This document shows positions 8,451 to 24,172 of a stretch of DNA of 64,000 bases, in pieces (positions within the stretch are counted from its first letter, which is position 1; each line of letters starts with the position of its first letter). Under the pieces are notes generated by a model. The model made no database searches and was not told where the DNA came from. It saw only the letters and a list, made by a program, of their open reading frames with translations. Location: NCBI RefSeq assembly GCF_020176715.1, contig NZ_JAIVMF010000001.1, positions 558,001-622,000 on the forward strand, written 5' to 3'. Origin of the DNA: Stappia stellulata (GTDB lineage Bacteria > Pseudomonadota > Alphaproteobacteria > Rhizobiales > Stappiaceae). The position numbers were made by a program, and so were the translations under genes.

Positions 8451-9299
8451 TCAGTTGCCCTGAAACACCGGCGTCTGCTTGGCGGCGAAGGCCTCGAAAG
8501 CACGGCGATAGTCCTCGGTCTTCATGCAGACCGCCTGGGCCAGCGCCTCGGCCTCGATCGCCTGGTCGACCGACATGTCCCATTCCATGTGCATCATCCG
8601 CTTGGTCATGGAGTTGGCGAAGGTCGGACCGGCGGAAAGGCTGTCGGCGAGCGCACGCGCGTCCGACAGCACCGCATCGCTGTCGACCAGCCGGTTGAAG
8701 AAGCCCCAGCGCTCGGCCTCCTCGCCGCTCATGACGCGGCCGGTGTAGAGAAGCTCCGACGCCCGGCCGTGACCGATGATGCGCGGCAGGATCGCGCAGG
8801 CGCCCATGTCGCAGCCGGCAAGGCCGACGCGGTTGAACAGGAAGGCGACTTTCGCCTTTTTCGTTCCGACGCGCAGGTCCGAGGCCATGGCGATGATCGC
8901 GCCGGCACCGACGCACACACCATCAATGGCGGCGACGATCGGCTGCGGACAGGCGCGCATCGCCTTGACCAGTTCGCCGGTCATCGTGGTGAACTGCAGG
9001 AGGCCCGGCATGTCGCGCGACAGCAGCGGCTCGATGATCTCGAAGACGTCGCCGCCGGAGCAGAAATGGCCGCCCGCCCCGGTCACGACGATGGTCTTGA
9101 TCTCCTCGTCGAACTGAAGCGCGCGAAACAGGTCGCGCAGCTCGGCGTAGGACTGGAAAGTCAGCGGGTTCTTGCGGTCCGGCCGGTTCAGCGTGATCGT
9201 CGCCGTCTTGCCGGCCACATCCAGCAGGAAGTGCTGCGGGGTGTAGTCCCGCACGGGCAGCGTGATCGCGTAGGTTTCCTGCGGGGCGACGTCAGCCAT
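8451..9299 (-). CDS. Crotonase-superfamily protein lacking the usual hydratase glutamates
   Basis: A 282-residue crotonase-fold protein (enoyl-CoA hydratase/isomerase family). The CoA and oxyanion-hole segments are intact: [13 protein letters not shown] (residues 73-85) and [18 protein letters not shown] (127-144). The two glutamates of classical enoyl-CoA hydratases are missing: aligning by eye, Ile135 replaces the one in GGGCEL and Arg157 the one in QPE. Asp164 in AGCDMG may be the acid/base instead. This suggests hydrolysis, ring cleavage or another crotonase reaction rather than simple hydration. Its ATG (9299) overlaps the MarR stop codon by 8 bases, so translation is probably coupled. 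An upstream in-frame start would lie further inside the MarR gene and was rejected. Confidence 0.85.
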
Positions 9300-9858
9300 C
9301 GGCGGTGTCCTTTTTCGCCAGTGTTGCTTGTGTGGAAACGTGCGGCGCGCCCTCGGCCGCCACGCGCGCGGAGGCCTTGGCTTTGGCAAGCAGACCCATC
9401 AGCGCGTCGATATCGCCGGCGTCCAGGCCGGCAAACAGATCCGCCACCCAGTCGGCATGGGCCGCAGCCATCGTCTCGAAGCTCGCCCGGCCGCTGTCCG
9501 TCAGGCTGACGAGCGCGGACCGCCGGTCGCCCGGCGCCGGGCGCCGCTCGACGAGACCGTCCTGCACCAGCCGCTCGACAAGGCCGGTGACATTTCCGGC
9601 CGACACCATCATGCGGCGCGACAGGTCGCCCAGCGTCATGCCGTCCGGCGCGCGTTCCAGCTGCGCCATCAGATCGAAGCGCGGCAGCGTCACGTCGAAA
9701 CGCGTACGCAGCAGCGAGCGGATCTCGCATTCGATCAGGTTTGTGCAGGTGAGCATTCTCAGCCAGAGCCGCAGCTCGGCGTGGTGATCGCCGCTGCCCT
9801 GCACCCGGGTTTCGGCATCGACCGTCTCCGGCAGGTCCTCGTCGACGAGCTTTTCCAT
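9292..9858 (-). CDS. MarR-family transcriptional regulator of the anthranilate island
   Basis: A 188-residue winged-helix regulator. The core has the MarR recognition helix and wing: [23 protein letters not shown] followed by [24 protein letters not shown], with the Asp-Arg-Arg wing signature. MarR proteins of aromatic-degradation clusters commonly repress until an aryl-CoA ester binds (for example BadR, HcaR and similar systems); that ligand is inferred here. It lies second in the minus-strand run, 7 bases after the SDR stop, and overlaps the crotonase start. The best candidate targets are the two matching palindromes at 10730-10747 and 24141-24160. Confidence 0.9.
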
Positions 9859-9865
9859 CAGCGCC

Positions 9866-10636
9866 TCACATCACTTCGCCGCCGGCAACCGCCAGCGACT
9901 GGCCGGTGACCGACCGCGCACCGTCGCCGGTGAGCCAAAACACGCAATCGGCCACTTCCTGCGGATCGATCAGGCGTTTCTGGGGATTGTCGCGCACCAT
10001 GTCGGCGACGATGTCCGCCTCCTCGCGCCCGGTCTTCTCGCGAATTCTCGCAACGCTCTCGCGGACAAGGTCGGTGTCGGCAAACCCCGGACAGACCGCA
10101 TTGACGGTCACCCCGGTTTCCGCCGTTTCCAGCGCCAGCGCCTTGGTCAGACCGACCACCGCATGTTTCGCCGCAACATAGGCGGAGACATAGCGATAGC
10201 CCTTGAGGCCGGCGGTGGAGGCGATGTTGACGATCCGGCCCGTTCCGGCCGCGATCATGCCGGGCAGCACCGCATGGCAGGCCGTCACCACACTGTCCAG
10301 ATTGACCGAGAGCATCCGCTGGAACTGCTCGGGCGGGGTCTTGAGGAAGGGAGCGCTTTCGGCAGCCCCGGCATTGTTGATCAGGATCGACACGCCGCCG
10401 TGGCGCTCTTCCGCCGCGCGGATCGCCTCGCTCAAGCCGTCCCGGTCGGTCACATCCGCCGAGACGAAGCCGGCTGCGCCAAGGGTCTTGGCGACCTGTT
10501 CGGCGCGGGTCGCATTGCGCCCGAGAATCGTGACGAGCGCGCCTTCGGCGACGAGGCGCTTTGCAATCGCCACGCCGATACCGCGGCCTCCCCCGGTCAC
10601 AAGCGCATGACGGCCGTGCAGCGGTCCCTGTGTCAT
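9866..10636 (-). CDS. Short-chain dehydrogenase/reductase (3-hydroxyacyl-CoA dehydrogenase type)
   Basis: A 256-residue classical SDR. It has the nucleotide-binding TGGGRGIG near residue 13, NNAGAA near residue 90, catalytic Ser in NIAST and the YVAAK pair (Tyr and Lys). Such enzymes oxidise a secondary alcohol with NAD(P)+; in this run it most likely acts on a hydroxyacyl-CoA or hydroxycyclohexene-CoA intermediate of anthranilate breakdown. The ATG at 10636 is preceded by AAAGGAG at 9 bases. A longer start 13 codons upstream has poorer context. It is the first gene of the minus-strand run and faces the monooxygenase gene across a 180-bp region that contains the palindrome. Confidence 0.88.
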   Translation of the reverse strand: MTQGPLHGRHALVTGGGRGIGVAIAKRLVAEGALVTILGRNATRAEQVAKTLGAAGFVSADVTDRDGLSEAIRAAEERHGGVSILINNAGAAESAPFLKTPPEQFQRMLSVNLDSVVTACHAVLPGMIAAGTGRIVNIASTAGLKGYRYVSAYVAAKHAVVGLTKALALETAETGVTVNAVCPGFADTDLVRESVARIREKTGREEADIVADMVRDNPQKRLIDPQEVADCVFWLTGDGARSVTGQSLAVAGGEVM

Positions 10637-10716
10637 GAGATGCGACTCCTTTGATGCCTGCGCCGGCCGGCTCAATCCGTTTCACCTAACGTCCACGTAA
10701 GGGAAACAACGACCAT

Positions 10717-10746
10717 TGCGCCCCGAATTATTTTAAGTTTAAAATA
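10717..10746 (+). promoter_or_regulatory. Sigma-70-like promoter of the monooxygenase/reductase gene
   Basis: TTGCGC (10717-10722), an 18-base spacer and TAAAAT (10741-10746) give a plausible promoter with a start near 10753, some 64 bases before the ATG. The -10 box is the right arm of the palindrome at 10730-10747, so a protein bound there would block RNA polymerase. Confidence 0.55.
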
Positions 10747-10747
10747 T
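10730..10747. promoter_or_regulatory. Palindromic operator 1 (probable MarR site)
   Basis: TATTTTAA-GT-TTAAAATA is a perfect 18-bp inverted repeat in an otherwise GC-rich divergent promoter region between the SDR and monooxygenase genes. A closely related palindrome, TATTTTAG-AC-CTAAAATA with one more matched pair, lies before the transporter at 24141-24160. MarR proteins typically bind AT-rich inverted repeats of this length. The regulator encoded at 9292-9858 is the obvious candidate. Confidence 0.7.
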
Positions 10748-10816
10748 CTCCAGCACGGACGCAAGCGCCAGCTCCCGGTGAAATGGGTCGGCCGGCGCAC
10801 AAGGAGAGGAACGGTC

Positions 10817-13156
10817 ATGCGTATCGAGGTAATCGGCGGCGGCCCGGCGGGCCTGTATTTCGCGATCCTGATGAAAAAGGCGCGGCCGGACACACGCATC
10901 ACGGTGCACGAGCGCAACAAGGCGGACGACACATTCGGCTTCGGCGTGGTGTTTTCCGACCAGACGCTGGAGACCTTCGAGCGCTACGACGCGGAGAGCT
11001 ACCGGGCGATCACCGAGAATTTCGCCTATTGGGACGACATCGCCATCCACTACAAGGATGACGTCTTCCGCATCGGCGGCAACGGGTTCTGCGGCTGTTC
11101 GCGCCGCACCCTCTTGCTGCTCCTCCAGGAGCGCGCAAGCCAGCTCGGCATCGAGATGCACTTCGAGGCGGACATCAAGGGCATCGAGCAGTTCGCCGAT
11201 GCGGACCTGATCATCGCCGCCGACGGCATCAATTCCGCCGTGCGCGAAGCGCATCGCGACCACTTCCAGCCGAGCGTCGACCTGCGTCCCAACAAGTTCA
11301 CCTGGATGGGCTCGACCAAGCCGCTCGACGCCTTCACCTTCTATTTCAAGGAAACCGAGCACGGCATCTTCATCGCCCACACCTACCAGTATGAGCCGGG
11401 CCTCTCGACCTGGGTGCTGGAGACCGACCCGGAGACCTTCGACAAGGCCGGTCTGGAACACATGAGCGAGCAGGAGTCCGCGACCTTCCTGGAAGGCGTC
11501 TTCGCGGAGGAACTCGACGGCCACAAGCTCAAGATCAACCGCTCGATGTGGCGCAACTTCCCGATGATCCGCAACGCCCGCACGACGATGGACAATGTCG
11601 TGCTGCTGGGCGACGCCAAGTCGACGGCGCATTTTTCCATCGGCTCGGGCACCAAGCTCGCCATGGAAGACGCCATCGCGCTTTATGAAAGCGTGATGCG
11701 CACCGCCGACGTGCCGGCCGCCCTTGCCGACTTCGAGGACACCCGCCGCGAGGAAGTGGAAAAGACCCAGCACGCCGCCGACGTGTCGCTGGTGTGGTTC
11801 GAGCACGTCAAGCGCTACTGGCACATGGATCCGGTCACCTTCGCCTTCGGCGTGATGACCCGCTCCAAGGCGATCACCTACGACAATCTCGACCTGCGCG
11901 CGCCCGATTTCGTCGCCAAGGCGACCCGCGCCTTCGCGGAAAAGGTCAAGGCGTCGGGCTTCGACGTCGACACGCAGGATCCCGTCGTTCCGGCGTTCCA
12001 GCCCTACCGCCTTCGCGACATGACGCTTGCCAACCGCTTCGTCGTCTCGCCGATGTGCATGTATTCCGCCGTCGACGGCGTCCCGCAGGACTTCCATCTC
12101 GTGCATTACGGCTCGCGCGCCATGGGCGGGGCGGGTCTGGTCTTTACCGAGATGACCTGCGTCTCGCCGACGGCCCGCATCACGCCGGGCTGTGCCGGCA
12201 TCTGGAGCGACGAACAGGAAGCGGCCTGGAAGCGGATCGTCGATTTCGCACATTCCCAGTCGGAAGCGAAGATCTGTCTGCAGATCGGTCACGCGGGCCG
12301 CAAGGGCGCCTCGAAGCTGATGTGGGAGGGCATGGACCGTCCGCTTCCGGCTGAAGAAGCCTGGCCGATCCTATCCGCCTCGCCCCTTCCCTATTATCCC
12401 GAAAGCCAGACGCCCAAGGCGATGGACCGGGCCGACATGGACACGGTGAAGGCGGACTTCGTCGCCGCCGCGCAGCGCGGCGCGCGCGCCGGCTTCGACA
12501 TGCTGGAGCTGCATTGCGCCCACGGCTATCTGCTGGCGAGCTTCCTGTCGCCGATCACCAACACGCGTACCGACGACTACGGCGGATCGCTGGAAAACCG
12601 CCTGCGCTTCCCGCTGGAGGTGTTTACGGCAGTGCGTGCGGCCTGGCCCGACGACAAGCCGATGTCGGTGCGCGTCTCGGCGACCGACTGGATCGAGGGC
12701 GGGATTACCGGCGACGACAGCGTTGTTATCGCCAAGGCCTTTGCCGAAGCCGGCGTCGACCTGATCGACGTCTCCACCGGACAGACCAGTCCCGACAGCG
12801 CGCCGGTCTACGGACGCATGTTCCAGACGTCCTACGCCGACCAGATCCGCAACGAGAGCGGCATCGCGACCATGGCAGTGGGGGCAATCACCTCGGCGGA
12901 CCAGGCGAACACGATCCTGGCGGCGGGCCGCGCGGACCTCATCGCGCTCGGCCGGCCGCATCTCGCCGACCCCGCCTTCACGCTGAGGGCTGCCGGCGAC
13001 TACGGCTTCGGCGACATTTTCGCGCCGAAACAGTATCAGCCGGGCAAGTTCCAGTTGCTCAGGAATGCGGAGCGGGAGCGCGAAGAGCTGAAGGAACTCA
13101 AGCTCAAGGCCAAGCCGAAGACCCACAATCCGGCCTTCCGGGAGGCAGCGGAGTAA
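10817..13156 (+). CDS. Bifunctional 2-aminobenzoyl-CoA (salicylyl-CoA-type) monooxygenase/reductase
   Basis: A 779-residue two-domain flavoprotein. The N-terminal half is a PHBH-type monooxygenase: [12 protein letters not shown] at residues 6-17 binds FAD, and [21 protein letters not shown] near residue 260 is the second FAD motif. The C-terminal half, from about residue 395, is an Old Yellow Enzyme domain ([42 protein letters not shown]). This fusion and length match the 2-aminobenzoyl-CoA monooxygenase/reductase of Azoarcus evansii, which hydroxylates and then reduces the aromatic ring without dioxygenase ring cleavage; similar fusions are also annotated as salicylyl-CoA 5-hydroxylase. The ATG at 10817 follows AAGGAGAGGA. 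It is the only plus-strand gene of the island and is read from the promoter overlapped by operator 1. Confidence 0.9.
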
Positions 13157-13221
13157 TCCGCCGCCAATCCGGCGCGGGACCGCTCGCAAATCGGGTCGCC
13201 CACGCCCCACCCATACGGCTA

Positions 13222-13250
13222 TCCGTCTGGTGCACTCATTGCCAGACGGA
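13222..13250 (+). promoter_or_regulatory. Inverted repeat overlapping the ribosome binding site of the DUF1203 gene
   Basis: TCCGTCTGG (13222-13230) and CCAGACGGA (13242-13250) are perfect complements separated by 11 bases. The right arm overlaps the start of the GGAGG ribosome binding site (13248-13252) of the gene starting at 13259. As RNA it could mask the site; as DNA it could be an operator or the terminator of the upstream gene. No T tract follows. Confidence 0.45.
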
Positions 13251-13258
13251 GGCAGACC

Positions 13259-13732
13259 ATGGCCGCACTTCGATTTCTCGCACTCGATACCGACACCGTC
13301 CGCCGCTATCAGGCGGGCGGTCCCGATGCCAACGGCCAGACGCCGGAGAGGGCGACTTCCAGCGGCGGAGGCCTCCCCTGCCGGCACTGCCTGAGGCAGA
13401 TACCCGAAGGCGCGCCTTACCTGATCCTCGCCCACCGGCCGTTCCCCCAAGCCCAGCCCTATGCGGAGATCGGCCCGATCTTCCTGTGCGCTGAGCCCTG
13501 CGAACGACATCCGGACAGCGACACGCTACCGGATATGTTCGCCGGGATGGACAGGCTGATCATGCGCGGCTACGGCCATGACCAGCGGATCGTCTATGGC
13601 ACCGGGGACGTGGTCGACACGTCGCAGATCGAGGCGCGCGCCGAGGCCTTGCTTGCACGCGACGACATCGCCTTTGTGCATCTGCGCTCGGCCCGCAACA
13701 ATTGCTACCAGGGCCGCATCGAGCGGGCGTAA
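13259..13732 (+). CDS. DUF1203 family protein
   Basis: A 157-residue soluble protein of the DUF1203 family, whose function is unknown. Family marks are PCRHCLRQIPEGAPYLILAHRPF with a CxxC pair near residues 41-44, PYAEIGPIFLC, and the C-terminal AFVHLRSARNNCYQGRIER. The paired cysteines could bind a metal or be redox-active, but nothing in the context supports either. The ATG at 13259 follows GGAGG by 6 bases. It stands between the monooxygenase gene and a convergent small membrane-protein gene, and no operon partner is evident. Confidence 0.85.
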   Translation: MAALRFLALDTDTVRRYQAGGPDANGQTPERATSSGGGLPCRHCLRQIPEGAPYLILAHRPFPQAQPYAEIGPIFLCAEPCERHPDSDTLPDMFAGMDRLIMRGYGHDQRIVYGTGDVVDTSQIEARAEALLARDDIAFVHLRSARNNCYQGRIERA

Positions 13733-13745
13733 GGGAGGTCGCGCC

Positions 13746-13892
13746 TTACTTGGTCTCGACAGAGATACCTTCTTCGCCGACCTGGATGTTGATACCCGAG
13801 GCCTGCTGCTGGTCCTGATAGACCTTGTAGCCCAACACACCCGCCGCGACGGCGAGAACGACAATAATCAGATACAGCCCGTTCCGTTTCAC
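13746..13892 (-). CDS. 48-residue single-pass membrane protein
   Basis: A short frame reads (GTG)KRNGLYLIIVVLAVAAGVLGYK, then YQDQQASGINIQVGEEGISVETK and TAA. The basic N-terminus, a hydrophobic stretch over residues 5-20 and an acidic periplasmic or cytoplasmic tail give a typical small one-helix membrane protein. Very similar short proteins, with a tail of the GI.I.VG..GIS type, are common hypothetical genes in Hyphomicrobiales. The start GTG at 13892 is preceded by AGGAAGGA at 7-8 bases, which strongly supports it. Function is unknown. The stop lies 13 bases from the convergent DUF1203 stop. Confidence 0.75.
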   Translation of the reverse strand: MKRNGLYLIIVVLAVAAGVLGYKVYQDQQQASGINIQVGEEGISVETK

Positions 13893-14007
13893 CCGAAAGT
13901 CCTTCCTTCAATGCCGGGCCTCGCGTGGGCTCCGGTCCGCCGACGGTACTGCCCCCTCGCGCCCAAGGCAAAGACGGCTTTCGCGCCATACACGGCAATC
14001 GCACAAG

Positions 14008-14036
14008 AAAACGGGCGACCAGAGGCCGCCCGTTTC
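14008..14036 (-). terminator. Rho-independent terminator of ilvD
   Basis: On the minus strand, a 9-bp perfect stem AAACGGGCG / CGCCCGTTT with a 9-base loop (14009-14035) is followed by TTCTTGT. It lies 33 bases past the ilvD stop codon, the right side and spacing for ilvD termination. Confidence 0.8.
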
Positions 14037-14068
14037 CGGATCATGATTGAAATAATGTGCGCGGGATC

Positions 14069-15913
14069 TCAGTCGACGCGGCGCACGGCCCCTTCCGCCG
14101 CCGAGGTCGTCAGCAGCGCATAGGCCTTGAGTGCCGTCGTGATCTTGCGGGTGCGCTTTTCCTCGGGCTTCCAGGCATTCGGGCCCTTGGCTTCCATCCC
14201 GGCGCGCCGGCTGGCCATCTCCTCGTCGGAAATCGCCAGATTGATCGTGCGGTTGGGAATGTCGATCTCAAGCGTATCGCCTTCCCGCGCCAGACCGATC
14301 GCCCCGCCCTCCGCCGCTTCCGGCGAAACGTGGCCGATGGAAAGGCCCGAGGTGCCGCCGGAGAAGCGACCGTCGGTGACAAGCGCGCAGGACTTTCCGA
14401 GACCCTTGGATTTCAGATAGCTCGTCGGATAGAGCATTTCCTGCATGCCGGGTCCGCCGCGCGGGCCCTCGTAGCGGATCAGCACCACGTCGCCGGCTTC
14501 CACCTTGTTGGTCAGGATCGCGCTGACGGCGCTGTCCTGGCTCTCGAAGATGCGCACCCGGCCGGTGAACTTCAGGATCGAATCATCGACGCCCGCGGTC
14601 TTCACGATGCAGCCGTCGAGCGCGATGTTGCCGTAGAGCACCGCCAGGCCGCCGTCCTGCGAGAAGGCATGCTCCTTCGCGCGGATCACGCCGTTTTCGC
14701 GGTCGTCGTCGACGCTGTCGTAGCGGCAATCCTGCGAAAACGCCGTCTGCGAGGGAATGCCGGCAGGACCTGCGCGGAAAAAGTCGCGCGCGGTCTGGCT
14801 GTCGGTGCGCTTGATGTCCCACTGATCGAGCGCGTGCTTGACGCTTTCGCTGTGCACCATCGGCAGCGAGGTGTCGATCAGCCCGGCCCGGTCGAGTTCG
14901 CCCAGGATGCCCATGATGCCGCCGGCGCGGTGAATGTCTTCCATGTGCACGTCGGGCACCGACGGCGCGACCTTGCACAGCACCGGCACCTTGCGCGACA
15001 GCTTGTCGATGTCGGACATGGTGAAATCGACCTCGCCCTCGCGGGCGGCGGCGAGCAGGTGCAGCACCGTGTTGGTCGAGCCGCCCATGGCAATGTCGAG
15101 CGACATGGCGTTGTGGAACGCCTGACGGTTGGCGATGTTGCGCGGCAGCACGCTTTCGTCGTTCTGCTCGTAGTAGCGCTTGGCAAGATCCACGATCAGG
15201 TGCCCCGCCTCGACGAAGAGACGCCGACGGTCGGCATGGGTCGCGAGCGTCGAACCGTTGCCCGGCAGCGACAGGCCAAGGGCCTCGGTCAGGCAGTTCA
15301 TGGAGTTCGCCGTGAACATGCCCGAGCATGATCCGCAGGTCGGACAGGCGGAACGCTCGATCGCCGCGACATCCTCGTCCGACATGTTGTCGTCGGCGGC
15401 CGCGACCATGGCGTCGACCAGATCCAGCGCCCGCTCGGTGCCGTCGGCGAGCCGGACCTTGCCGGCCTCCATCGGTCCGCCGGAGACGAAGACGGCCGGG
15501 ATGTTCAACCGCATCGCGGCGCTCAGCATGCCCGGCGTGATCTTGTCGCAGTTGGAAATGCAGACCATCGCGTCGGCGCAATGGGCATTGACCATATATT
15601 CCACGCTGTCGGAGATAATCTCGCGCGAGGGCAGCGAATAGAGCATGCCGTCGTGGCCCATGGCGATGCCGTCATCGACCGCGATGGTGTTGAACTCCTT
15701 GGCGACGCCGCCGGCGGCCTCGATCTCGCGCGCGACAAGCTGGCCAAGGTCCTTCAGGTGCACGTGACCCGGCACGAACTGGGTAAAGGAGTTCACCACC
15801 GCGATGATCGGCTTGCCGAAATCGCCGTCCTTCATGCCGGTCGCGCGCCACAGGCCGCGCGCGCCCGCCATGTTGCGTCCATGGGTGGTGGTTCTAGAGC
15901 GGTAGGTCGGCAT
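14069..15913 (-). CDS. ilvD: Dihydroxy-acid dehydratase
   Basis: A 614-residue IlvD, which dehydrates 2,3-dihydroxy-isovalerate and 2,3-dihydroxy-3-methylvalerate in branched-chain amino acid synthesis. The iron-sulfur and Mg-binding segments are intact: [10 protein letters not shown] near residue 122, [22 protein letters not shown] near residue 195 (shown in part as [10 protein letters not shown]), and [11 protein letters not shown] plus [11 protein letters not shown] in the C-terminal half. Length matches the usual 611-617. The gene stands alone with its own terminator. The ATG at 15913 is the natural start. A GTGAC inverted repeat lies 37-55 bases upstream and may mark regulation. Confidence 0.97.
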
Positions 15914-15949
15914 GCTCGCCCCTGTCGGTTCGTATGACTATTAGTGGAA

Positions 15950-15968
15950 GTGACGAGTAAATTGTCAC
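15950..15968. promoter_or_regulatory. Inverted repeat upstream of ilvD
   Basis: GTGAC (15950-15954) and GTCAC (15964-15968) are complementary with a 9-base AT-rich spacer. The repeat lies 37-55 bases before the ilvD ATG, in the expected promoter region. A regulator site is possible; the arms are short, so chance is not excluded. Confidence 0.35.
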
Positions 15969-16016
15969 CTGCCGAAACGCAAGTGAAAGCGCGGTGAGAA
16001 CGGCAATGCCACCCGC

Positions 16017-16970
16017 TCAGGGATGCAATGCGTCCCTCCGCGGCTCATGCAGCCTGGTCAGATAGCCGGGAAGCTGATCGCACGCGTCGTCGCGGTAGGG
16101 AAGCAGATGCACCGCATCGTCCAACGAGTTTTCGTCGAAGACCCGGTTGATGCGCTCGATCCGCGCGCGGACTTCCTCATCCCATAGGTCCGTTAGCGGT
16201 TCGAATTTATCGACCGCCCCGATCCCCAACGCCTCGCCAAGGCGAACGAGATAAATGCCCTGGTCGGGAAAGTACTTGAGACTTTTCAGTTGAGCGTCGA
16301 CCCGAAGAAGAAATTCCAAGGCGCCGGCATGATGGTGACACGCGGCAAGGTGCTTGAGGACGAACGTCGCGCTGAAGAGACGATTGTCGTCCAACTCGAC
16401 GGAACGGGTCGCGGTCGCACGACCGATACCGATGAAATATTGCGCCGTGTGGACGTCGACTTCGTCCGCCCACTCTTCGGTCAGCCTTTGCGCCTCCGCA
16501 ACGAGGGGCTCGACAATGCGGAGCGCCTGACAATACGAAAACGCACGCGAGTAGATGGGGAATATCGCCTTGCGAAACAGTGGACCGATATCCGTTTCAG
16601 CAAGGGCCAGCCTCAACTCCGGATACAAATGCTTGTAGGCGGCCAACTCGATCTCAGCGACCTCGCCACACTCCCTGTTTGTCACAGCAACATGCAGCCG
16701 CTGGCGTGCATCCGGGCTCAACGCCTCGGAGACCTGTTTTTCAAGAAACGGAAGCCAAGGGCTCCGAACCCGAAACCAGTCCCGCCCGTCGTCCCGCGAG
16801 AGCGCGAGCCCTCCCGTGGTGAACGTTCGATACTCTCGAACATCGCGCATGAAGACTTCTGCATCGAAAGGCTCGGCGTGGGCTGAAGGAGAGGGAGAAA
16901 ATAGCAAGCAAACAAAGACTAGAACAGCCTTCAGCGCCCAGGAGTGAAGAAAAAATCCCTTCATTTTCAT
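16017..16970 (-). CDS. Secreted hypothetical protein
   Basis: A 317-residue protein that was not recognised. The N-terminus MKMKGFFLHSWALKAV, a hydrophobic core and SPSAHA-EP form a clear Sec signal peptide with cleavage after about residue 31, so it is periplasmic or secreted. The mature part is mainly helical, with Cys at about residues 106, 154 and 217 plus a C-terminal one, and a His-rich AACHHHAG near residue 218. No domain was identified. Start choice: ATG at 16970; an in-frame TTG six codons upstream and an ATG two codons downstream are alternatives. GC content drops towards its 5' end and stays low across the divergent neighbour, suggesting acquisition by transfer. Confidence 0.7.
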   Translation of the reverse strand: MKMKGFFLHSWALKAVLVFVCLLFSPSPSAHAEPFDAEVFMRDVREYRTFTTGGLALSRDDGRDWFRVRSPWLPFLEKQVSEALSPDARQRLHVAVTNRECGEVAEIELAAYKHLYPELRLALAETDIGPLFRKAIFPIYSRAFSYCQALRIVEPLVAEAQRLTEEWADEVDVHTAQYFIGIGRATATRSVELDDNRLFSATFVLKHLAACHHHAGALEFLLRVDAQLKSLKYFPDQGIYLVRLGEALGIGAVDKFEPLTDLWDEEVRARIERINRVFDENSLDDAVHLLPYRDDACDQLPGYLTRLHEPRRDALHP

Positions 16971-17065
16971 ATACTTTCTTGCATTCAAACGACTTTATTC
17001 GCCATCAAAAAATAGAGCTAGTCTGGATGACCTCAATTAAATTTGGCAAAAATGAGGATTTTCGA

Positions 17066-17440
17066 ATGCATGACCGCAAACGGGTTCAGACGTCTCTCCA
17101 GATCGCAGCATTCGGCGAAGCGCCCGAAAAACGAATGTCCCTGACACCGCATGACTTCAATCTTCGGAACCATTGTCGCTCGCTGCGAACAGAAATAGCC
17201 GGCGAGCAATCCAATCTTCGAAAGCTCGAAACCGAGCGCGACGCCTTAAACCGGGAATGGCTCGAAATCACAAATGAACGTCGAAATGGCGCCACCGGAG
17301 ATCGCCTGGAGTTTATCAAAGCCGAAAAATCCCGCTTAAAGCAGCGCGCGGGTATGGCCGAAACCCTCATCTACCGAGCCAACGAGCGTCTTAAGGCCCT
17401 GAAGAACGACTGGGAAATCAGCGGCTGCGATTCGCTGTGA
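17066..17440 (+). CDS. Small coiled-coil hypothetical protein
   Basis: A 124-residue hydrophilic protein with a strong predicted coiled coil over about residues 35-115 (SLRTEIAGEQSNLRKLETE, then ERDALNREW and later KAEKSRLKQRAGMAE). No known family recognised. The frame is open from 16979, but the ATG at 17066 has GAGG 8 bases before it and is preferred. It is divergent from the secreted protein gene and shares its low GC content, with more AT-rich codons than the surrounding genes. Function unknown. Confidence 0.6.
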   Translation: MHDRKRVQTSLQIAAFGEAPEKRMSLTPHDFNLRNHCRSLRTEIAGEQSNLRKLETERDALNREWLEITNERRNGATGDRLEFIKAEKSRLKQRAGMAETLIYRANERLKALKNDWEISGCDSL

Positions 17441-17460
17441 ACCGCCCGCTCCCGGAACCG

Positions 17461-17492
17461 CCTGACGGACCGCTTCGGTGCGGCCCGTCAGG
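17461..17492. terminator. Intergenic hairpin between two convergent genes
   Basis: CCTGACGG (17461-17468) and CCGTCAGG (17485-17492) form an 8-bp stem, with an inner CCGC/GCGG stem. It lies between the coiled-coil gene (ends 17440) and the facing solute-binding protein gene (ends 17501). No T tract is seen on either strand, so factor-independent termination is uncertain. Confidence 0.5.
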
Positions 17493-17500
17493 CATCCGCA

Positions 17501-19207
17501 TCAGCTTTCGACCCAGGTGGCGTTGAGCACATGGTACTTCGACGGATGCGCCGGGAAGCCATGCACCTTGTCCGCTGTCATCGTGTAGATCGGCCGCCAC
17601 AGCGGCTGTACGATGGCGCCGCTGTCCTGCAGCAGCCGCTCGACCGTCTCCATCTTCTGCCGACGTTCGTCGGGATCGAAGATCGCCTCTGCCGCGTCCA
17701 GGGCGGCGTCGAAGTCCGGGTTGGAGAAGCGGCTCTCATTCCACGGCACGCCGGAACGATAGGCCTGCGACAGCACCATGGTGCCGAGCGGACGATGCGC
17801 CCAGGACGTCGCGCCGAACGGCGTTTCGGTCCACACCTCCCAATATTTCGTCGCCGGCATCAGGTTCACGGTCAGGCGAATACCGGCGTCGGCCATCTGG
17901 TCGCGCATCGCCTCGCACACGGTTTGCTGCCACACGCCGTCGGTATTGCCGACGTCGATGGTAAGGTCGATTCCGTCCGCATATCCGGCCTCCGCAAGGA
18001 GCGCCTTTGCCCCGTCCACATCGCGCATCGTCTTCGGCAGGTCGAAATACTCCGGATGCACCGGCGACACGTGATGGTTCTCGCCCGTCTGTGCATCGTC
18101 GGCAAAAACAATGGCCGCGATCTCCACATTGTCGATCGACAATTGCACAGCCTTGCGCACCCTCACATCGTCGAAAGGTGCCGTGTCCATGCGCATCCGA
18201 CACACGAGACAATAGGCCGTCTCCACCGGCAGGATCTTTCCGGGGAAGCTCTCGGCCAGCGGCTTTTGCTCCGGGCCAAATTCAAAGATCGCATCGACGT
18301 CGCCGCCGGCCAGCGCGAGCAACTGGTTGTCGACGCTGAAGTCGTAGTAGTGGATCTCGTCAAGCAGCACGTCTCCGCCCCAATAGGCGAAGGCTTCGCC
18401 ATCGGCGCGGGTGGTCATCCGCTCCAGGATACAGCGTTCGCCGACGACCAACTCCTTGAGCGTGTAGGCGCCCGTGCCGATCGGATTGTCCGACCACGGC
18501 GCGGTGAACGACGGATGCACGATGGGGCAGGAGAAATTGCTGAAGTCCTCCGGAACCGACAAGACGGGCTTGGCGAGGTTCAGGCGCAGCGTCAACGGAT
18601 CGACCACCTCGACGGCGCCCGCGATGGGACGGCGCACCGGCGTCCCGTCCTCCTCCCGCTCGCCGGTTTCCTCCACCAGCGCGCTGAAGGTCGACAGGCC
18701 GATGTTGGCGGATCCGAGCGTGGCGTCGAGCCAGCGCCGCACGTTCCAGGCAACGTCCTCGGCGGTGAAGGGATCGCCATTGTGCCAGGTCACGCCCTCG
18801 CGAAAGGTGATCACCCAGGTCTTGAGATCGTCGGAGGGCGACCACCCGGCGGCGAGCATCGGCCGGGTGATGTTGTCAGCGCCCGTCAGCGCGACATAGT
18901 CGAGCACCTGGCGAGCCTGATTGGCCATCTCCCCCCAGGAAAACAGCGCCGGATCGTCCATCTTCTGCACGCCCATGCCGATGCGCAGGACCCCGCCACG
19001 CGTGGCCTCGGCATCGACGGCGGGAAACGGCGAATCGGCGAGCGTGTTCGCCTGCGCGGGCGCCGAAAGGCCGGCGAGCCCGTAGGCACTTGCCGCTCCG
19101 AGGCCGAAAAGCGCGGCAAGGCGAACAAACTGGCGCCGGTCAAGACCGCCCTGCTCCATCTGACGGCGAGCGCGTTCCACGAGACGATGATTGGGGCCTG
19201 AAGTCAT
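17501..19207 (-). CDS. Tat-exported family 5 (peptide/nickel-type) ABC solute-binding protein
   Basis: A 568-residue SBP_bac_5 protein. The N-terminus has a twin-arginine signal, DRRQFVRLAALFGLG near residues 23-37, followed by a hydrophobic stretch and APAQA cleavage, so it should be exported folded. Family segments include WVITFREGVTWHNGDPFTAEDV, GTGAYTLKEL and RVRKAVQLSIDNVEI. Such proteins bind peptides, opines, nickel or other small molecules for an ABC importer. No matching permease or ATPase genes of this family lie beside it: the adjacent transporter is of the branched-chain type and has its own binding protein. It may feed a distant transporter. The ATG at 19207 is the natural start. 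Substrate unknown. Confidence 0.85.
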   Translation of the reverse strand: MTSGPNHRLVERARRQMEQGGLDRRQFVRLAALFGLGAASAYGLAGLSAPAQANTLADSPFPAVDAEATRGGVLRIGMGVQKMDDPALFSWGEMANQARQVLDYVALTGADNITRPMLAAGWSPSDDLKTWVITFREGVTWHNGDPFTAEDVAWNVRRWLDATLGSANIGLSTFSALVEETGEREEDGTPVRRPIAGAVEVVDPLTLRLNLAKPVLSVPEDFSNFSCPIVHPSFTAPWSDNPIGTGAYTLKELVVGERCILERMTTRADGEAFAYWGGDVLLDEIHYYDFSVDNQLLALAGGDVDAIFEFGPEQKPLAESFPGKILPVETAYCLVCRMRMDTAPFDDVRVRKAVQLSIDNVEIAAIVFADDAQTGENHHVSPVHPEYFDLPKTMRDVDGAKALLAEAGYADGIDLTIDVGNTDGVWQQTVCEAMRDQMADAGIRLTVNLMPATKYWEVWTETPFGATSWAHRPLGTMVLSQAYRSGVPWNESRFSNPDFDAALDAAEAIFDPDERRQKMETVERLLQDSGAIVQPLWRPIYTMTADKVHGFPAHPSKYHVLNATWVES

Positions 19208-19413
19208 TGCGTATCGCCCTTTGCGGCTGATTGCAGATCGTGCCTTCGCACCCTGACGGGACGGGCGCTCGTGCCTTTTGCACGTGACGTGATCGAGAAT
19301 TTGTGAGGGACCGACCCTAACCGGAATTGGAACGTCCGGATATGACGAATGAACGACTTCGCACCGCCCTCATGACAAGAACGCAAGAGAACTTTCAACG
19401 CCTCGACGTGCGC

Positions 19414-20124
19414 TCAAACGCTCAGGTAGCGTTCGCGAATGGTGGCGTCGGCCGACAGTTCCGCGGATGTCCCCGACCAGACGACTTGCCCCTTCTCCAC
19501 CACGACATGGGCATCGGCGAGCTTTTCCAGCGCATCGACATTCTTGTCGACGACGAGGATCGACTGTCCCTCGCCCTTGAGGCGTTCCAGGCAGGCCCAG
19601 ATCTCTGCGCGCACCAGCGGCGCAAGGCCTTCGGTCGCCTCGTCCAGGATCAGCAGCTTGGGGTTGGTCATCAGCGCGCGGCCGATGGCGAGCATCTGCT
19701 GCTCGCCGCCCGACAGCTGGTTGCCCATGTTCTGCCGACGCTCGCGCAGGCGCGGGAAGAACTCATAGACCCGCTCCAGCGACCAGCCGGGCGTCGCCCC
19801 GTGCCGATTGGCGCTGGTGGCGATCAGGTTTTCCTCAACGCTCAGGGTCGGGAAGATCTGCCGACCCTCCGGCACCAGCCCGAGGCCGGCCTGCGCGACC
19901 CGATAGGACGGGCGCCCCGTCACGTCCTCGCCGTCGAAGACGATGCGCCCGCCGTCGGCGGCAATCATGCCGAGCAGCGCGCGGATCGTAGTCGTCTTGC
20001 CCATGCCGTTGCGGCCCATGAGCGTGACGACCTTGCCGGCGGGCACGGAAAACTCCATCCCGAAAAGAACCTTCGCCGCCCCGTAGGAGGCTTCCAGCCC
20101 GGACACTTCGAGCAGCATCGTCAT
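19414..20124 (-). CDS. Branched-chain-type ABC transporter ATPase (LivF-like)
   Basis: A 236-residue ABC ATPase of the LivF group. Motifs: Walker A GRNGMGKTTT near residue 36, signature LSGGEQQM near residue 137, Walker B LLILDEATEGLAP near residue 157. It energises uptake together with the LivG-like ATPase, the two permeases and the binding protein encoded upstream. Its ATG overlaps the LivG stop by 4 bases. It is the last gene of the five-gene operon. Confidence 0.93.
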   Translation of the reverse strand: MTMLLEVSGLEASYGAAKVLFGMEFSVPAGKVVTLMGRNGMGKTTTIRALLGMIAADGGRIVFDGEDVTGRPSYRVAQAGLGLVPEGRQIFPTLSVEENLIATSANRHGATPGWSLERVYEFFPRLRERRQNMGNQLSGGEQQMLAIGRALMTNPKLLILDEATEGLAPLVRAEIWACLERLKGEGQSILVVDKNVDALEKLADAHVVVEKGQVVWSGTSAELSADATIRERYLSV

Positions 20125-20876
20125 GCCACCGCCTCCTCGCCGAGATAGGCCTCGCGCACGCGTGGATTGTCGCGGATTTCCTCCGGCGTTCCGGTGGCGA
20201 CGATCTCGCCGTAGACCAGAACGGAGATCCGGTCGGCCAGCGCGAAGACGGCACTCATGTCGTGTTCCACCAGAAGCATCGCGTAGCGCCCCTTGAGCGC
20301 GCGCAGGACCTCGACCAGACGGTCGGTTTCCTCGCGCCCGGTGCCGGCCATCGGCTCGTCGAGAAGCAGGAGCTTCGGCTCGCAGGCCATGGCGATGGCA
20401 AGCTCCAGCGCGCGTTTCTCGCCATGCGACAGCGTGCCGGCGGGCACCTCCGCGCGGGCCTCCAGGCCGAGTTCAGCCAGACAGGCGTCGGCGCGGGCAT
20501 TGAGATCCGCGTCGCGCGACACGTTGCGCCAGAAACGGAAGGAATGCCCCTCGCGCGCCTGCAGCGCCAGCGCCACGTTCTCGCGCGCGGTGAAGGCGGG
20601 AAGGATCTCGGTGATCTGGAACGAGCGCAGCAGGCCCGCATGGGCGCGCGCATGCATCGGCAAGGCGGTGACATCCCGGCCGTCGAAACGGATGCGACCG
20701 CTGTCGGGGGCGAGCGAGCCGGAGATCTGGCCGATCAGCGTGGTCTTGCCGGCGCCGTTCGGGCCGATCACCGCGTGGATCTCGCCGGGCCGAACGTCAA
20801 GGCTGACGTGGCTTGTGACCTTAAGCGCGCCATAGGCCTTGCAGAGATCGTCGAGCGCAAGGATCGGTTCAGCCAT
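20121..20876 (-). CDS. Branched-chain-type ABC transporter ATPase (LivG-like)
   Basis: A 251-residue ABC ATPase of the LivG group with Walker A GPNGAGKTTLI near residue 38, signature LSHGEKRALE near residue 147, Walker B LLLLDEPMAG near residue 167 and H-loop EHDM. It overlaps the permease gene before it by 8 bases and the LivF-like gene after it by 4 bases, indicating translational coupling. Signature Ser-His-Gly-Glu is the usual variant in this group. Confidence 0.93.
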   Translation of the reverse strand: MAEPILALDDLCKAYGALKVTSHVSLDVRPGEIHAVIGPNGAGKTTLIGQISGSLAPDSGRIRFDGRDVTALPMHARAHAGLLRSFQITEILPAFTARENVALALQAREGHSFRFWRNVSRDADLNARADACLAELGLEARAEVPAGTLSHGEKRALELAIAMACEPKLLLLDEPMAGTGREETDRLVEVLRALKGRYAMLLVEHDMSAVFALADRISVLVYGEIVATGTPEEIRDNPRVREAYLGEEAVA

Positions 20877-21834
20877 TCTTGCGCCCTCCCGGCAGCAGCG
20901 AAATCAGGCCGCCGCGCCCGAACAGCACGACGAGCACGAGGAAGGGGCCGAAAATCAGCCGCCAGTGCTCGGTGAAGTGGGACAGCACCTCCTCCAGCAC
21001 CAGAAAGCTCGCAGCCCCAACGATCGCGCCAAGCAGCGACCCGAGACCGCCGAGCACCACCATGACGATGAGTTCGCCCGAACGGTGCCAGGACATATAG
21101 GCGGGCGAGACGAATTCGGCCGCGTTGGCCAGAAGCGCCCCGGCAAGCCCCGCCATCATGCCGGCAATGACATAGGCGATGAGCCGGTAGGCGTAAGGAT
21201 CGATACCGATGGCGCGCAGGCGCATTTCACTTTGCTTGGCACCCTGCAGCACCCGTCCGAAGCGCGAGGCGACGATCATGCGCGCCAGCAGATAGCAGGT
21301 CAGCAGGCATCCGAGCACGACATAGTAGAACACCGTGCGGTCGCCGAGCGCGGTGGAGCCCAGGATCTCGGTGCGCCCCCACATCGTCAGCCCGTCGTCG
21401 CCGCCATAGGCGGACAGCGAGGTTGCCGTGTAATAGGCCATCTGCCCGAAGGCGAGCGTGATCATGATGAAATAGACCCCGCGCGTCTTCAGGCTGATCG
21501 CCCCGGTTACCAGCGCGAAAAGGCCGCAGACGGCCAGCGTGACCGGCAACGAGACGGTGACATCCCAGATGCCGTGCTCGGCCAGGATGGCGACGCAATA
21601 GGCACCGAGGCCGAGATAGGCGGCGTGGCCGAAGCTCACCATCGCGCCATAGCCGAGGATCAGCGACAGGCTGACGGCGGCGATGGCGAAGACCATGATG
21701 CGGATGGTGAAGAAGACGACGAAGGTATCGCCCATCGCATCGGCGAGGATGGGGAGCCCGGCGAAGAGCGCGAAGACGATCAACGCACCGATCAGTTCGC
21801 GCGACAGGCGGGCGGGAGCGGATTGTGTGGACAT
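20869..21834 (-). CDS. Branched-chain-type ABC transporter permease (LivM-like)
   Basis: A 321-residue inner-membrane permease with about nine hydrophobic segments. The family segment GYGAMVSFGHAAYLGLGAY near residue 66, the EAA-like loop RAIGIDPYAYRLIAY near residue 210 and VLGGLGSLLGAIVGA near residue 260 identify LivM. The ATG at 21834 was chosen; a GTG four codons upstream would overlap the LivH stop by 8 bases and is an equal alternative. Confidence 0.92.
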   Translation of the reverse strand: MSTQSAPARLSRELIGALIVFALFAGLPILADAMGDTFVVFFTIRIMVFAIAAVSLSLILGYGAMVSFGHAAYLGLGAYCVAILAEHGIWDVTVSLPVTLAVCGLFALVTGAISLKTRGVYFIMITLAFGQMAYYTATSLSAYGGDDGLTMWGRTEILGSTALGDRTVFYYVVLGCLLTCYLLARMIVASRFGRVLQGAKQSEMRLRAIGIDPYAYRLIAYVIAGMMAGLAGALLANAAEFVSPAYMSWHRSGELIVMVVLGGLGSLLGAIVGAASFLVLEEVLSHFTEHWRLIFGPFLVLVVLFGRGGLISLLPGGRKNG

Positions 21835-21838
21835 GAGG

Positions 21839-22762
21839 TTAGCCACCCCGCACGGGAAAGAGGCCGGTCGGCCGGAAGAACAGCACGCCCGCCATCAGGA
21901 TATAGATCAGCATGGAGGCGATGGCCGGGCCGACGTCATTGGCAGCGGAGGGCGAAAGCAGCAGCTTGGCGATGTCGGTTGCAAAGCCCCGGCCCAGCGT
22001 GTCGACCAGCCCGACGATGAGCGCTGCCAGGAACGCGCCGCGGATCGAGCCGATGCCGCCGATGACGATCACGACGAAGGCGAGGATCAGCAGATTGTCG
22101 CCCATCCCCGGTTCCACCACCAGGATGGGGGCTGCGAGAATGCCGGCGAAGCCCGCGAGCATGGTGCCGAAGCCGAAGACCAGCATGAACAGGCGGCGGA
22201 TATCGACGCCAAGGGCAGAGACCATCGGCGCATTGGTCGCGCCGGCGCGCACCAGCATGCCCGCGCGGGTCTTGCTGACGAGCACATAGAGAAGGGCTGC
22301 GACCGCTAGACCGGCGACGATCAGGGCGATCCGGTAGACCGGGTAAAGCAAGCCGTCCATGATTTCGATGGAACCGGAGAGAAGATCGGGCATGGGCAGC
22401 GTCAGCGGCGCCGCGCCCCAGATCACCTTCACCGCCTCGTTCAGAAACAGAATCACGCCGAAGGTCGCCAGCACCTGATCGAGATGATCCCGGTCGTAGA
22501 GATGTCGGAAGATCAGGGCCTCAAGCAGAAGGCCGACGACCAGCGCGCCGACGAGCGCAATCAGCATCGCGCCCCAGAAGGTGCCGGTGATGGCGTAGCC
22601 CGCGACCGCCAGATAGGCGCCGAGCATATATTGGACGCCATGGGCAAGATTGATGAAATCCATCACGCCGAAGACGAGCGTCAGTCCGGCGGCGATCAGA
22701 AACAGCAGGATGCCAAGCTGCAGGCCATTCAGCGTCTGGACGGCAAAAAGGGTGGCGCTCAA
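21839..22762 (-). CDS. Branched-chain-type ABC transporter permease (LivH-like)
   Basis: A 307-residue inner-membrane permease. It has the LivH opening QTLNGLQLGILLFLIAAGL followed by FGVMDFINLAHG, the loop VRAGATNAPMVSALGVDIRR near residue 190 and VIVIGGIGSIRGAF near residue 235. It pairs with the LivM-like permease to form the translocation path. A strong hairpin separates it from the binding-protein gene, which normally lets the binding protein be made in excess. Confidence 0.93.
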   Translation of the reverse strand: MSATLFAVQTLNGLQLGILLFLIAAGLTLVFGVMDFINLAHGVQYMLGAYLAVAGYAITGTFWGAMLIALVGALVVGLLLEALIFRHLYDRDHLDQVLATFGVILFLNEAVKVIWGAAPLTLPMPDLLSGSIEIMDGLLYPVYRIALIVAGLAVAALLYVLVSKTRAGMLVRAGATNAPMVSALGVDIRRLFMLVFGFGTMLAGFAGILAAPILVVEPGMGDNLLILAFVVIVIGGIGSIRGAFLAALIVGLVDTLGRGFATDIAKLLLSPSAANDVGPAIASMLIYILMAGVLFFRPTGLFPVRGG

Positions 22763-22813
22763 CGGTCCGACCTCGTCGGTTGCGCATGACTGCGGAGGCG
22801 ATGGGAGTGCAGA

Positions 22814-22838
22814 CGGTCCGGGCGCGGGGCCCGGACCG
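22814..22838 (-). terminator. Hairpin between binding-protein and permease genes
   Basis: CGGTCCGGG (22814-22822) and CCCGGACCG (22830-22838) form a perfect 9-bp stem with a 7-base loop, 16 bases past the binding-protein stop. Such hairpins in ABC operons commonly stabilise the upstream message or cause partial termination, raising binding-protein output over permease output. No T tract follows. Confidence 0.6.
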
Positions 22839-22853
22839 AAGGACGAACGGACG

Positions 22854-24020
22854 TCAGTTCATCCGGCATTCGTCGACATAGGCGTCGACCTTGTCGTCGA
22901 ACACCTTCTCGACCGTTTCGGTGACATATTTGCCGTCGTCGCGCTTGACCGCCTTGACGACATAGACGTCCTGGATCGGGAAGTTGTTGGTGTTGAAGGT
23001 AAAGTCGCCGCGAACGCTTTCGAAGGGGGCTTCCTTCAAGGCGGCCATCAGCGCCTGCTTGTCGCCCTTGCCGCCGGCTTTCTTCAGCGCCGCATCGATC
23101 AGGCGGGCCGCGTCATAACCCTGGGCCGCATAGGTTGCCGGCGCATAGCCGTATTCGGCTTCAAAGGCTGCGACGAACTCCTTGTTGGCCGCATTGTCGA
23201 GGTTCGGCGCCCATTGCGCGCCGGCCTGCAGGCCAAGCGCGGCGTCCTGGGTCGCCGGCAGCGTGGTCTCGTCCACGGTGAAGGCGGAGAGGAAGGGGAT
23301 CTCGCCAGCAAGGCCGGCCTGGGCATATTGCTTCACCAGGTTCACGCCCATGCCGCCCGGCATGAAGGTGAAGATGGCGTCCGGCTTGGCGGCCGCGATG
23401 CGGGTGATCTCGGAGGAGAAGTCGAGCTGGCCGAGCTTGGTGTAGAGCTCGTCGACGATCTCGCCCTTGAAGTGGCGCTTGAAGCCGGCGATGGAATCCT
23501 TGCCCGCCTGATAGTTCGGCGCCATCACGATCATGCGCTTGTAGCCGGCGTCCTCGGCGTATTTGCCCATCGCCTCGTGATTCTGGTCGTTCTGGTAGGA
23601 CGTGGTGAAGAAATAGGGCGAGCAGGCGCGGCCCGCGATCGGCGAGGGACCGGCGTTGCCGCCGACGAAAATCGTCTCGCTGTCGATGATCGGCTTGTAG
23701 ACGGCCATCATCACGTTGGAAAAGACCACGCCGGCCATCATGTCGACCTGGTCGCGCTCCAGCAGCCCGCGCACCTTGGTCAGCGCGCCGTCCGGCTTCA
23801 GCTCGTCGTCCACGACGATGACCTCGGTGTCGAGGCCGCCCAGCTTGCCGCCGGCCTGCTTGACGCCCAGCAGGAAACCGTCGCGCATGTGCTGGCCAAG
23901 AACCGCCGGCGGTCCGGAAAGGGTCGCCAGGAATCCGATCTTCAGGCTTTCCGCCTGCGCGGCGGCACCATAAAGGCCGACTGCGGCCGCGGTCACCGCG
24001 GCAGTAATAATACGCTTCAT
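22854..24020 (-). CDS. Type I periplasmic binding protein of a branched-chain/aromatic-acid-type ABC importer
   Basis: A 388-residue Leu/Ile/Val-binding-type protein (Peripla_BP_6). Signal peptide: MKRIITAAVTAAAVGLYG with cleavage after AAAQA near residue 23. The mature start ESLKIGFLATLSGPPAVLGQH is the family opening, followed by VVDDELKPDGALTKVRGLL and GYDAARLIDAALKKAGG. Members near aromatic-degradation genes often bind aromatic acids such as benzoate or hydroxybenzoates rather than leucine. Here the shared palindrome before this gene and before the 2-aminobenzoyl-CoA monooxygenase suggests anthranilate or a related aryl compound. It is the first gene of the transporter operon. Confidence 0.92.
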   Translation of the reverse strand: MKRIITAAVTAAAVGLYGAAAQAESLKIGFLATLSGPPAVLGQHMRDGFLLGVKQAGGKLGGLDTEVIVVDDELKPDGALTKVRGLLERDQVDMMAGVVFSNVMMAVYKPIIDSETIFVGGNAGPSPIAGRACSPYFFTTSYQNDQNHEAMGKYAEDAGYKRMIVMAPNYQAGKDSIAGFKRHFKGEIVDELYTKLGQLDFSSEITRIAAAKPDAIFTFMPGGMGVNLVKQYAQAGLAGEIPFLSAFTVDETTLPATQDAALGLQAGAQWAPNLDNAANKEFVAAFEAEYGYAPATYAAQGYDAARLIDAALKKAGGKGDKQALMAALKEAPFESVRGDFTFNTNNFPIQDVYVVKAVKRDDGKYVTETVEKVFDDKVDAYVDECRMN

Positions 24021-24140
24021 TGGTCTCTCCCCTCAGGCCCGCCGCACGCCACGATCCGGTCAGCAGCGGTCCTCTGGATGGTGTCTGTCGTCTTCTGACG
24101 CCGCGTTTTGTACGGCTCACCGCTCTGCCGGCGGTTGGAA

Positions 24141-24160
24141 ATATTTTAGACCTAAAATAT
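24141..24160. promoter_or_regulatory. Palindromic operator 2 (probable MarR site)
   Basis: ATATTTTAG-AC-CTAAAATAT is a perfect 20-bp inverted repeat, 121-140 bases before the binding-protein ATG. It matches operator 1 (10730-10747) in 14 of 18 core positions and has the same 2-base centre spacing. As there, one arm supplies the -10 box, so one regulator could switch both promoters. Confidence 0.7.
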
Positions 24161-24172
24161 CTCCGGTGTGAA
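24143..24172 (-). promoter_or_regulatory. Sigma-70-like promoter of the ABC transporter operon
   Basis: On the minus strand, TTCACA (24172-24167), an 18-base spacer and TAAAAT (24148-24143) form a promoter with a start near 24136. The -10 box is the downstream arm of operator 2, the same geometry as at the monooxygenase promoter. Confidence 0.5.

Follow-up and report, generated by a model that had tools for sequence, protein, structure and literature searches.

CouR, a MarR-family protein of Rhodopseudomonas palustris and Rhodococcus jostii, acts as a homodimer on a palindromic operator and represses catabolic genes for aromatic acids; its effector is a coenzyme A (CoA) thioester, p-coumaroyl-CoA, and the free acid is not bound (PMC9594313). 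In Azoarcus sp. CIB, the repressor MbdR uses 18-bp palindromic operators at several promoters, including that of the CoA ligase, and is induced by the first CoA intermediate, 3-methylbenzoyl-CoA (PMC4424350). MarR_73 (IadR) of the Variovorax auxin locus is a MarR repressor beside an anthranilate-yielding pathway and is released by its ligand (PMC9613470). For Arthrobacter sp. Rue61a, PaaX-related regulators near the genes for anthranilate-CoA ligase and 2-aminobenzoyl-CoA monooxygenase are said to help control quinaldine degradation, a pathway with the same CoA intermediates (PMC3534580). A stretch of 64,000 nucleotides of the Stappia stellulata genome (referred to as the window) was analysed, in which two matched AT-rich palindromes stand upstream of a catabolic locus and of an ABC importer. 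Both palindromes are very probably operators of the MarR-family repressor encoded in the catabolic locus, which would block the catabolic, divergent and importer promoters until it is released by an aryl-CoA. The aromatic acid broken down and imported is most likely anthranilate.

The CouR pathway differs from the 2-aminobenzoyl-CoA type encoded in the window, and the CouR chain 6c28 matched the window MarR protein weakly (expectation value E 6.7e-5); the closest solved relative of this protein was the MarR-family structure 3boq (E 8.4e-23). MbdR, unlike the window regulator, belongs to the TetR family and has the operator ATACN10GTAT. MarR_73 (IadR) has indole-3-acetate as ligand, serves another catabolic locus and is likened by description only, and the Rue61a regulators belong to another regulator family and another phylum. 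Promoter occlusion relieved by an aryl-CoA would be typical of such regulators, examples being CouR and the TetR-family MbdR. The open-access matches listed, which mostly leave out subscription journals, included no paper that describes a MarR regulator for the 2-aminobenzoyl-CoA pathway. The regulon is regarded as new, and its kind is well known.

The first palindrome is flanked by the divergent operon, which starts with a gene of the SDR family, and by the monooxygenase gene; the second, which has the longer form ATATTTTAGACCTAAAATAT (24141-24160), lies upstream of the importer operon (Table 1). The pattern TATTTTARNNYTAAAATA was found without mismatch in exactly two places of the 4.55-Mb genome (58 contigs), which are these two promoters. 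At up to two mismatches it matched the window twice and was absent from 100 dinucleotide shuffles; in the whole genome one more site was gained at this level, and the reversed control gave two matches. The first-pass annotation had described both palindromes as the only ones of their type noticed in the window and had proposed their motif for a genome scan. Both are present and their singularity was borne out in the window and, for perfect matches, in the genome; only the coordinates of the first were off by one (10729-10746, not 10730-10747). Mismatch counts against a consensus were adopted because a symmetric dyad finder overlooked many degenerate sites; the consensus was derived from the finding itself and not by blind motif discovery. 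A chance origin of the palindromes was rejected on the basis of the shuffles, the reversed-pattern controls and the conservation. An intrinsic terminator was considered and set aside without a scan for terminators, since the repeat is AT-rich and coincides with promoter-like elements.

Conservation was followed in a genus set consisting of 13 relatives, from which the neighbourhoods were extracted, and the window genome. Across these 14 genomes the consensus TATTTTANNNNTAAAATA gave 39 sites at up to one mismatch and the reversed control none; at two mismatches there were 90 sites versus 44 in the control, and a solitary two-mismatch site therefore carries little weight. Two such sites of the window genome, on contigs C13 and C15 (L107, L108), were not accompanied by any of the pathway genes queried. 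Site 1 was a perfect match to TATTTTANNNNTAAAATA in the gap between the SDR and monooxygenase genes in all 13 relatives and in the window. For the importer, the binding-protein gene was located first and the motif was sought second. A copy was present 117-126 bp upstream of the gene in 14/14 genus orthologues (at least 85% identity) at up to two mismatches, and in 12 of them at up to one. The 350 bp upstream of 13 binding-protein paralogues (44-57%) contained no motif match with fewer than six mismatches; seven of these paralogues sit in operons headed by a third site, which is described below. The importer is located on a different contig in G078 and about 283 kb off in G004, a member of a second genus, yet it has its own site in both, and the link between motif and importer is therefore not a position effect. 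Both sites were present in all three genomes of this second genus (G004-G006). Four further genera of the family were patchier, with G008 and G015 having a one-mismatch site before the monooxygenase gene and G033 before the SDR gene.

Distant loci were taken from a monooxygenase scan of named genomes, limited to the best 80 of 582 relatives. Of 81 loci, window included, 79 were counted, L162 and L172 being dropped with less than 200 bp upstream; the searched stretch comprised 300 bp upstream and 10 bp of the monooxygenase gene. The motif was present in 45/79 loci at up to two mismatches and in 53/79 at up to three, in several orders. When a strong MarR hit (at least 180 bits) was contained in the fetched DNA, the motif occurred in 31/44 loci at up to two mismatches and in 36/44 at up to three. 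In split operons, ligase upstream regions carried it in 11/37 cases (13/37 at up to three mismatches), and those of Bradyrhizobium in 8/9 at up to two. Binding-protein upstream regions of split operons had it in 4/19 cases at up to two mismatches (Pseudorhodoplanes, two Microvirga, Acuticoccus) and in 12/19 at up to three. The reversed control gave no match at up to three mismatches in these ligase and binding-protein regions.

The flanks of the palindromes were compared for 15 and 14 chosen Stappiaceae sites, 14 distinct each, from which the near-identical L079 and L085 were omitted. TTGC ahead of site 1 and GGGCTTCACA ahead of site 2, both 18 bp from TAAAAT, were invariant in the 14 distinct sequences, as was the block GACGCAAGC past site 1; L079, outside this set, has GGACTTCACA in place of GGGCTTCACA. 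In G209, from another family, TTGC stands at 18-bp spacing on both sides of the palindrome. The motif combined with TTGC at this spacing, searched at up to one mismatch, gave 10 matches in 9 of 397 order genomes; all were perfect, all lay between SDR and monooxygenase genes, and the control gave none. Spacing was also analysed in 44 distant loci, selected by the motif at up to three mismatches and free of duplicates and of the diverged MarR clade described below (window and L119 excluded). TTG[ACG] was found 11-13 bases ahead of the palindrome in 31 of them (spacer 16-18, mostly 17 or 16) and at any other offset from 4 to 40 in at most three. The 18-bp inverted repeat overlaps predicted promoter elements of the MarR gene's own operon and of its neighbours. 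Read on the minus strand, the conserved block past site 1 (GCTTGCGTC) would be a natural -35 for the divergent operon, the -10 of which would then lie in the palindrome centre. The model of an operator placed on the -10 element is well supported by this layout.

It is highly improbable that the palindromes are merely AT-rich promoter cores, that is, strong -10 boxes whose likeness is due to chance or to constraint by the sigma factor. The right arm is itself the -10 element, but the left arm is conserved to the same degree, and a plain -10 artefact was rejected for this reason. In AT-richer genera of the family, motif-like matches were as frequent as those of the reversed control, which equalled or exceeded them in some genomes even at one mismatch (motif versus control 5 vs 7 in G025, 4 vs 7 in G027). 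On the other hand, perfect copies are restricted to these two promoters of the genome, and the reversed pattern had no match at up to three mismatches in any of the 79 loci, its best match anywhere having four.

Six proteins of the cluster were scanned, and of these the MarR protein alone was a regulator. Of 87 genomes of the family, 72 have both MarR (E 1e-20 or better) and the monooxygenase (E 1e-150 or better), 14 have neither, and one is discordant. This last one, G028, lacks the monooxygenase, and its MarR match (C1:554000-554416) contains an internal stop, as expected of a decaying remnant. Cluster-borne MarR genes were found in loci of several orders. In a tree of the MarR proteins, for which the tool warned of long branches meeting, eight loci formed a diverged clade (support 97/94), comprising five named Gammaproteobacteria or Cellvibrionales relatives and three Alphaproteobacteria. 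This clade tends to carry another palindrome, TATATTACNNGTAATATA. Classified by the nearest consensus within three mismatches, 41 of 47 non-clade loci were of the first type and six undecided, and the eight clade loci comprised five of the second type, two of the first and one undecided; the second consensus had been composed after viewing four of the loci it later classified, and the loci are related, which makes this tally neither blind nor independent. The two exceptions, L175 and L176, hold an additional MarR protein outside the clade, and their first-type site stands before the SDR gene, adjoining that MarR gene. The helix that presumably reads DNA in MarR proteins differs between the clades (VSNGNVTGLV or one other form versus ASKGNITRLV-like). 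Near-TATATTACNNGTAATATA palindromes were seen in the gammaproteobacterial loci L173, L180, L188 and L190, where a diverged MarR gene adjoins the monooxygenase gene.

From these data, the MarR protein of the window would be the best candidate regulator of both sites. Binding by a different, unlinked regulator (TetR or another MarR), with the clustered MarR protein working elsewhere, is unlikely. The concordance of MarR and monooxygenase in 86 of the 87 genomes, the cluster-borne MarR genes in several orders and the altered palindrome in most of the diverged clade all speak against it; the confinement of the regulator scan to six cluster proteins and six motif loci whose fetched DNA gave no MarR hit are in its favour. 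These six are L131 and L146, both cut by the contig end, and L170, L178, L181 and L184; Jiella, Aurantimonas and Fulvimarina are represented among them. Such loci weigh against control of the pathway by the clustered MarR protein through the two operators, and so do the relatedness of the distant loci, the long-branch warning, the way in which the second consensus was composed, the two first-type loci in the diverged clade, and the following results. In the full set of loci without such a hit, the motif occurred in 6/20 at up to two mismatches and in 8/20 at up to three. It was absent at up to three mismatches upstream of the monooxygenase gene in 14/59 MarR-bearing loci, eight of them with a strong MarR hit; in L133, the monooxygenase gene lies behind the ligase gene with the site further up, and in others of the 14 the site stands instead before the MarR gene (L164) or the SDR gene (L194, L195). 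Eleven Bradyrhizobium binding-protein upstream regions had only versions with 3-5 mismatches. Within the family, G012 has a site before the importer only, and G001 (L099), from another genus, has no site at up to two mismatches despite the presence of MarR and monooxygenase.

The first-pass annotation had placed both operons in one regulon under the MarR protein, with the divergent operon sharing the first promoter region. Comparative genomics held up the shared regulon and the shared region, and the role proposed for the MarR protein is consistent with the gene co-occurrence and the motif shift in the diverged clade. The hexamer pairs TTGCGC/TAAAAT (plus strand) and TTCACA/TAAAAT (minus strand) with their 18-base spacing were found as it had stated, the operator position on the -10 element agrees with the matching spacers of the distant loci, and the membership of the importer is sustained by its own site in all 14 genus genomes, even when unlinked.

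According to the proposed mechanism, a MarR dimer would sit on the 18-bp palindrome and cover the -10 elements of three promoters (those of the monooxygenase gene, the divergent SDR-MarR-hydratase-dehydrogenase-ligase operon and the importer), and RNA polymerase would be blocked. The repressor would also limit its own synthesis, because the divergent promoter belongs to its own operon. The aromatic acid would enter the cell and be activated to a CoA thioester, most likely 2-aminobenzoyl-CoA; this ligand would free the MarR protein, and catabolism and uptake would be switched on together.

Table 1. Positions of the palindromes (proposed operators), predicted promoter elements and genes (window coordinates unless a locus is named).
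Feature	Position	Strand	Remarks
Operator 1	10729-10746	none	TATTTTAAGTTTAAAATA; flanked by SDR operon and monooxygenase gene; perfect match to TATTTTANNNNTAAAATA
Operator 2	24142-24159 (18-bp core)	none	TATTTTAGACCTAAAATA; upstream of importer operon
-35 element TTGCGC, monooxygenase promoter	10716-10721	+	18-bp spacer to TAAAAT; position read, TTGC conserved
-10 element TAAAAT, right arm of operator 1	10740-10745	+	Putative promoter role
Conserved block GACGCAAGC (GCTTGCGTC on minus strand), candidate -35 of divergent SDR-MarR operon	10758-10766	-	Putative promoter role
-35 element TTCACA, importer promoter	24172-24167	-	18-bp spacer to TAAAAT
-10 element TAAAAT inside operator 2	24148-24143	-	Putative promoter role
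Benzoate-CoA ligase family protein	5512-7164	-	TIGR02262, 406.5 bits (cut-off 375)
Acyl-CoA dehydrogenase family protein	7221-8423	-	No model above its cut-off
Enoyl-CoA hydratase family protein	8451-9299	-	NF006107, 474 bits (cut-off 330); scan from 9302; ATG at 9299
MarR-family regulator, 188 amino acids, proposed repressor	9292-9858	-	Winged-helix domain: PF12802, 58.4 bits (cut-off 27); PF01047, 51 bits (cut-off 24.6)
SDR-family dehydrogenase, first in divergent operon	9866-10636	-	Family model scan from 10639; ATG at 10636
2-Aminobenzoyl-CoA monooxygenase/reductase type fusion protein (ACMR)	10817-13156	+	NF006101, 1138 bits (cut-off 1078)
Importer ATPase, LivF/UrtE type	19414-20124	-	Family assignment
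Importer ATPase, LivG/UrtD type	20121-20876	-	Family assignment
Importer permease, LivM/UrtC type	20869-21846	-	Family assignment
Importer permease, LivH/UrtB type	21839-22762	-	Family assignment
Periplasmic substrate-binding protein of importer (SBP6)	22854-24020	-	PF13458, 273 bits
Third copy of the motif	L101:5836-5853; also L100, L102-L105, L113		Heads gene run

Leftward from site 1, the SDR and MarR genes are followed by genes for an enoyl-CoA hydratase, an acyl-CoA dehydrogenase and a member of the benzoate-CoA ligase family, likely a 2-aminobenzoate-CoA ligase; rightward, the gene product is a flavin monooxygenase that carries an old-yellow-enzyme-type reductase as fusion partner. The CoA ligase and the fusion protein are thus both present, as required by the 2-aminobenzoyl-CoA (aerobic hybrid) pathway, and we take the gene set of the cluster to fit this pathway. 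Residues 393-741 of the monooxygenase match the NADPH dehydrogenase model NF010047 with 328 bits, under its cut-off of 431. The importer genes form a single run with the full HAAT/LIV-type set of a binding protein, two permeases and two ATPases, the component set of LIV/urea-type ABC importers. SBP6 is related in sequence to the solved proteins 4evq (E 9e-54) and 4ey3 (E 1e-49), which we take to bind benzoate derivatives. The region between both operons (14069-19207) encodes a dihydroxy-acid dehydratase and a family-5 (peptide-type) binding protein and contains no motif copy.

Even with the regulator and its sites assigned correctly, the pathway and ligand could belong to a different aryl-CoA (salicylyl-CoA, for instance), or the free acid could be the effector. 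This is a serious possibility, though the less likely one. NF006101, the best NCBIfam model for the monooxygenase, bears the name salicylyl-CoA 5-hydroxylase/oxidoreductase, which counts against anthranilate. Fusion to an old-yellow-enzyme-type reductase, however, is a hallmark of 2-aminobenzoyl-CoA monooxygenase/reductase, and a copy of the motif precedes an operon for an FAD monooxygenase, a cupin and a hydrolase in seven relatives, which may be a source of anthranilate.

Probable targets beyond the window are a fadJ-like gene and an operon of relatives that may have a feeder role. The operator-like sequence TGTTTCAATCTTAAAATA upstream of the fadJ-like gene (C14:25734-25751 of the window genome, G000; L106:5735-5752) was the additional two-mismatch site found with TATTTTARNNYTAAAATA in this genome. 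It recurs as TGTTTCAATCYTAAAATA in 10/14 genus genomes (control 0), G083 carries a variant, and all 11 sites are located upstream of the fadJ-like gene. A similar variant is present in G085. The element overlaps a -35-like sequence, TTGAAA, and not a -10; as a candidate weak operator, it would bring in beta-oxidation enzymes. The third copy, of the TATTTTAGACTTGAAATA type with one or two mismatches, was present in 7/14 genus genomes and absent from the window genome. In the gene run that it heads, a cupin, an alpha/beta hydrolase and an FAD monooxygenase are encoded together with another binding protein, which is 55-57% identical to that of the importer; the domain assignments come from L101 alone. 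This gene run could be a route into anthranilate. In L101, an AraC-family gene is divergent from the third copy. An AT palindrome with different conserved flanks (AATGCATGTCTGAGGTTG) was seen in three genus genomes (L110:4917, L111:4594, L112:4799), and operator-like sequences, known from their sequence alone, are present in L097, L109-L112 and L114.

A broader reading is put forward tentatively, with slightly less than even confidence. A MarR repressor would control the aerobic 2-aminobenzoyl-CoA pathway across the Alphaproteobacteria and in some Beta- and Gammaproteobacteria by means of a portable operator/-10 cassette, which would have been carried to catabolic, ligase, importer, beta-oxidation (fadJ-like) and feeder promoters. 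In the sister clade, the half-site would have been rewritten from TATTTTAR to TATATTAC together with the recognition helix, and the importer would serve anthranilate uptake under the control of 2-aminobenzoyl-CoA.

For the 2-aminobenzoyl-CoA pathway, a specific transcription factor, operator and promoter layout are hereby proposed. Membership in the regulon ties a LIV-type importer to the same substrate as the catabolic genes. If the inducer is 2-aminobenzoyl-CoA, the cassette would serve as a ready sensor for this thioester, and the two MarR clades, which differ in half-site, would represent a natural experiment in operator specificity.

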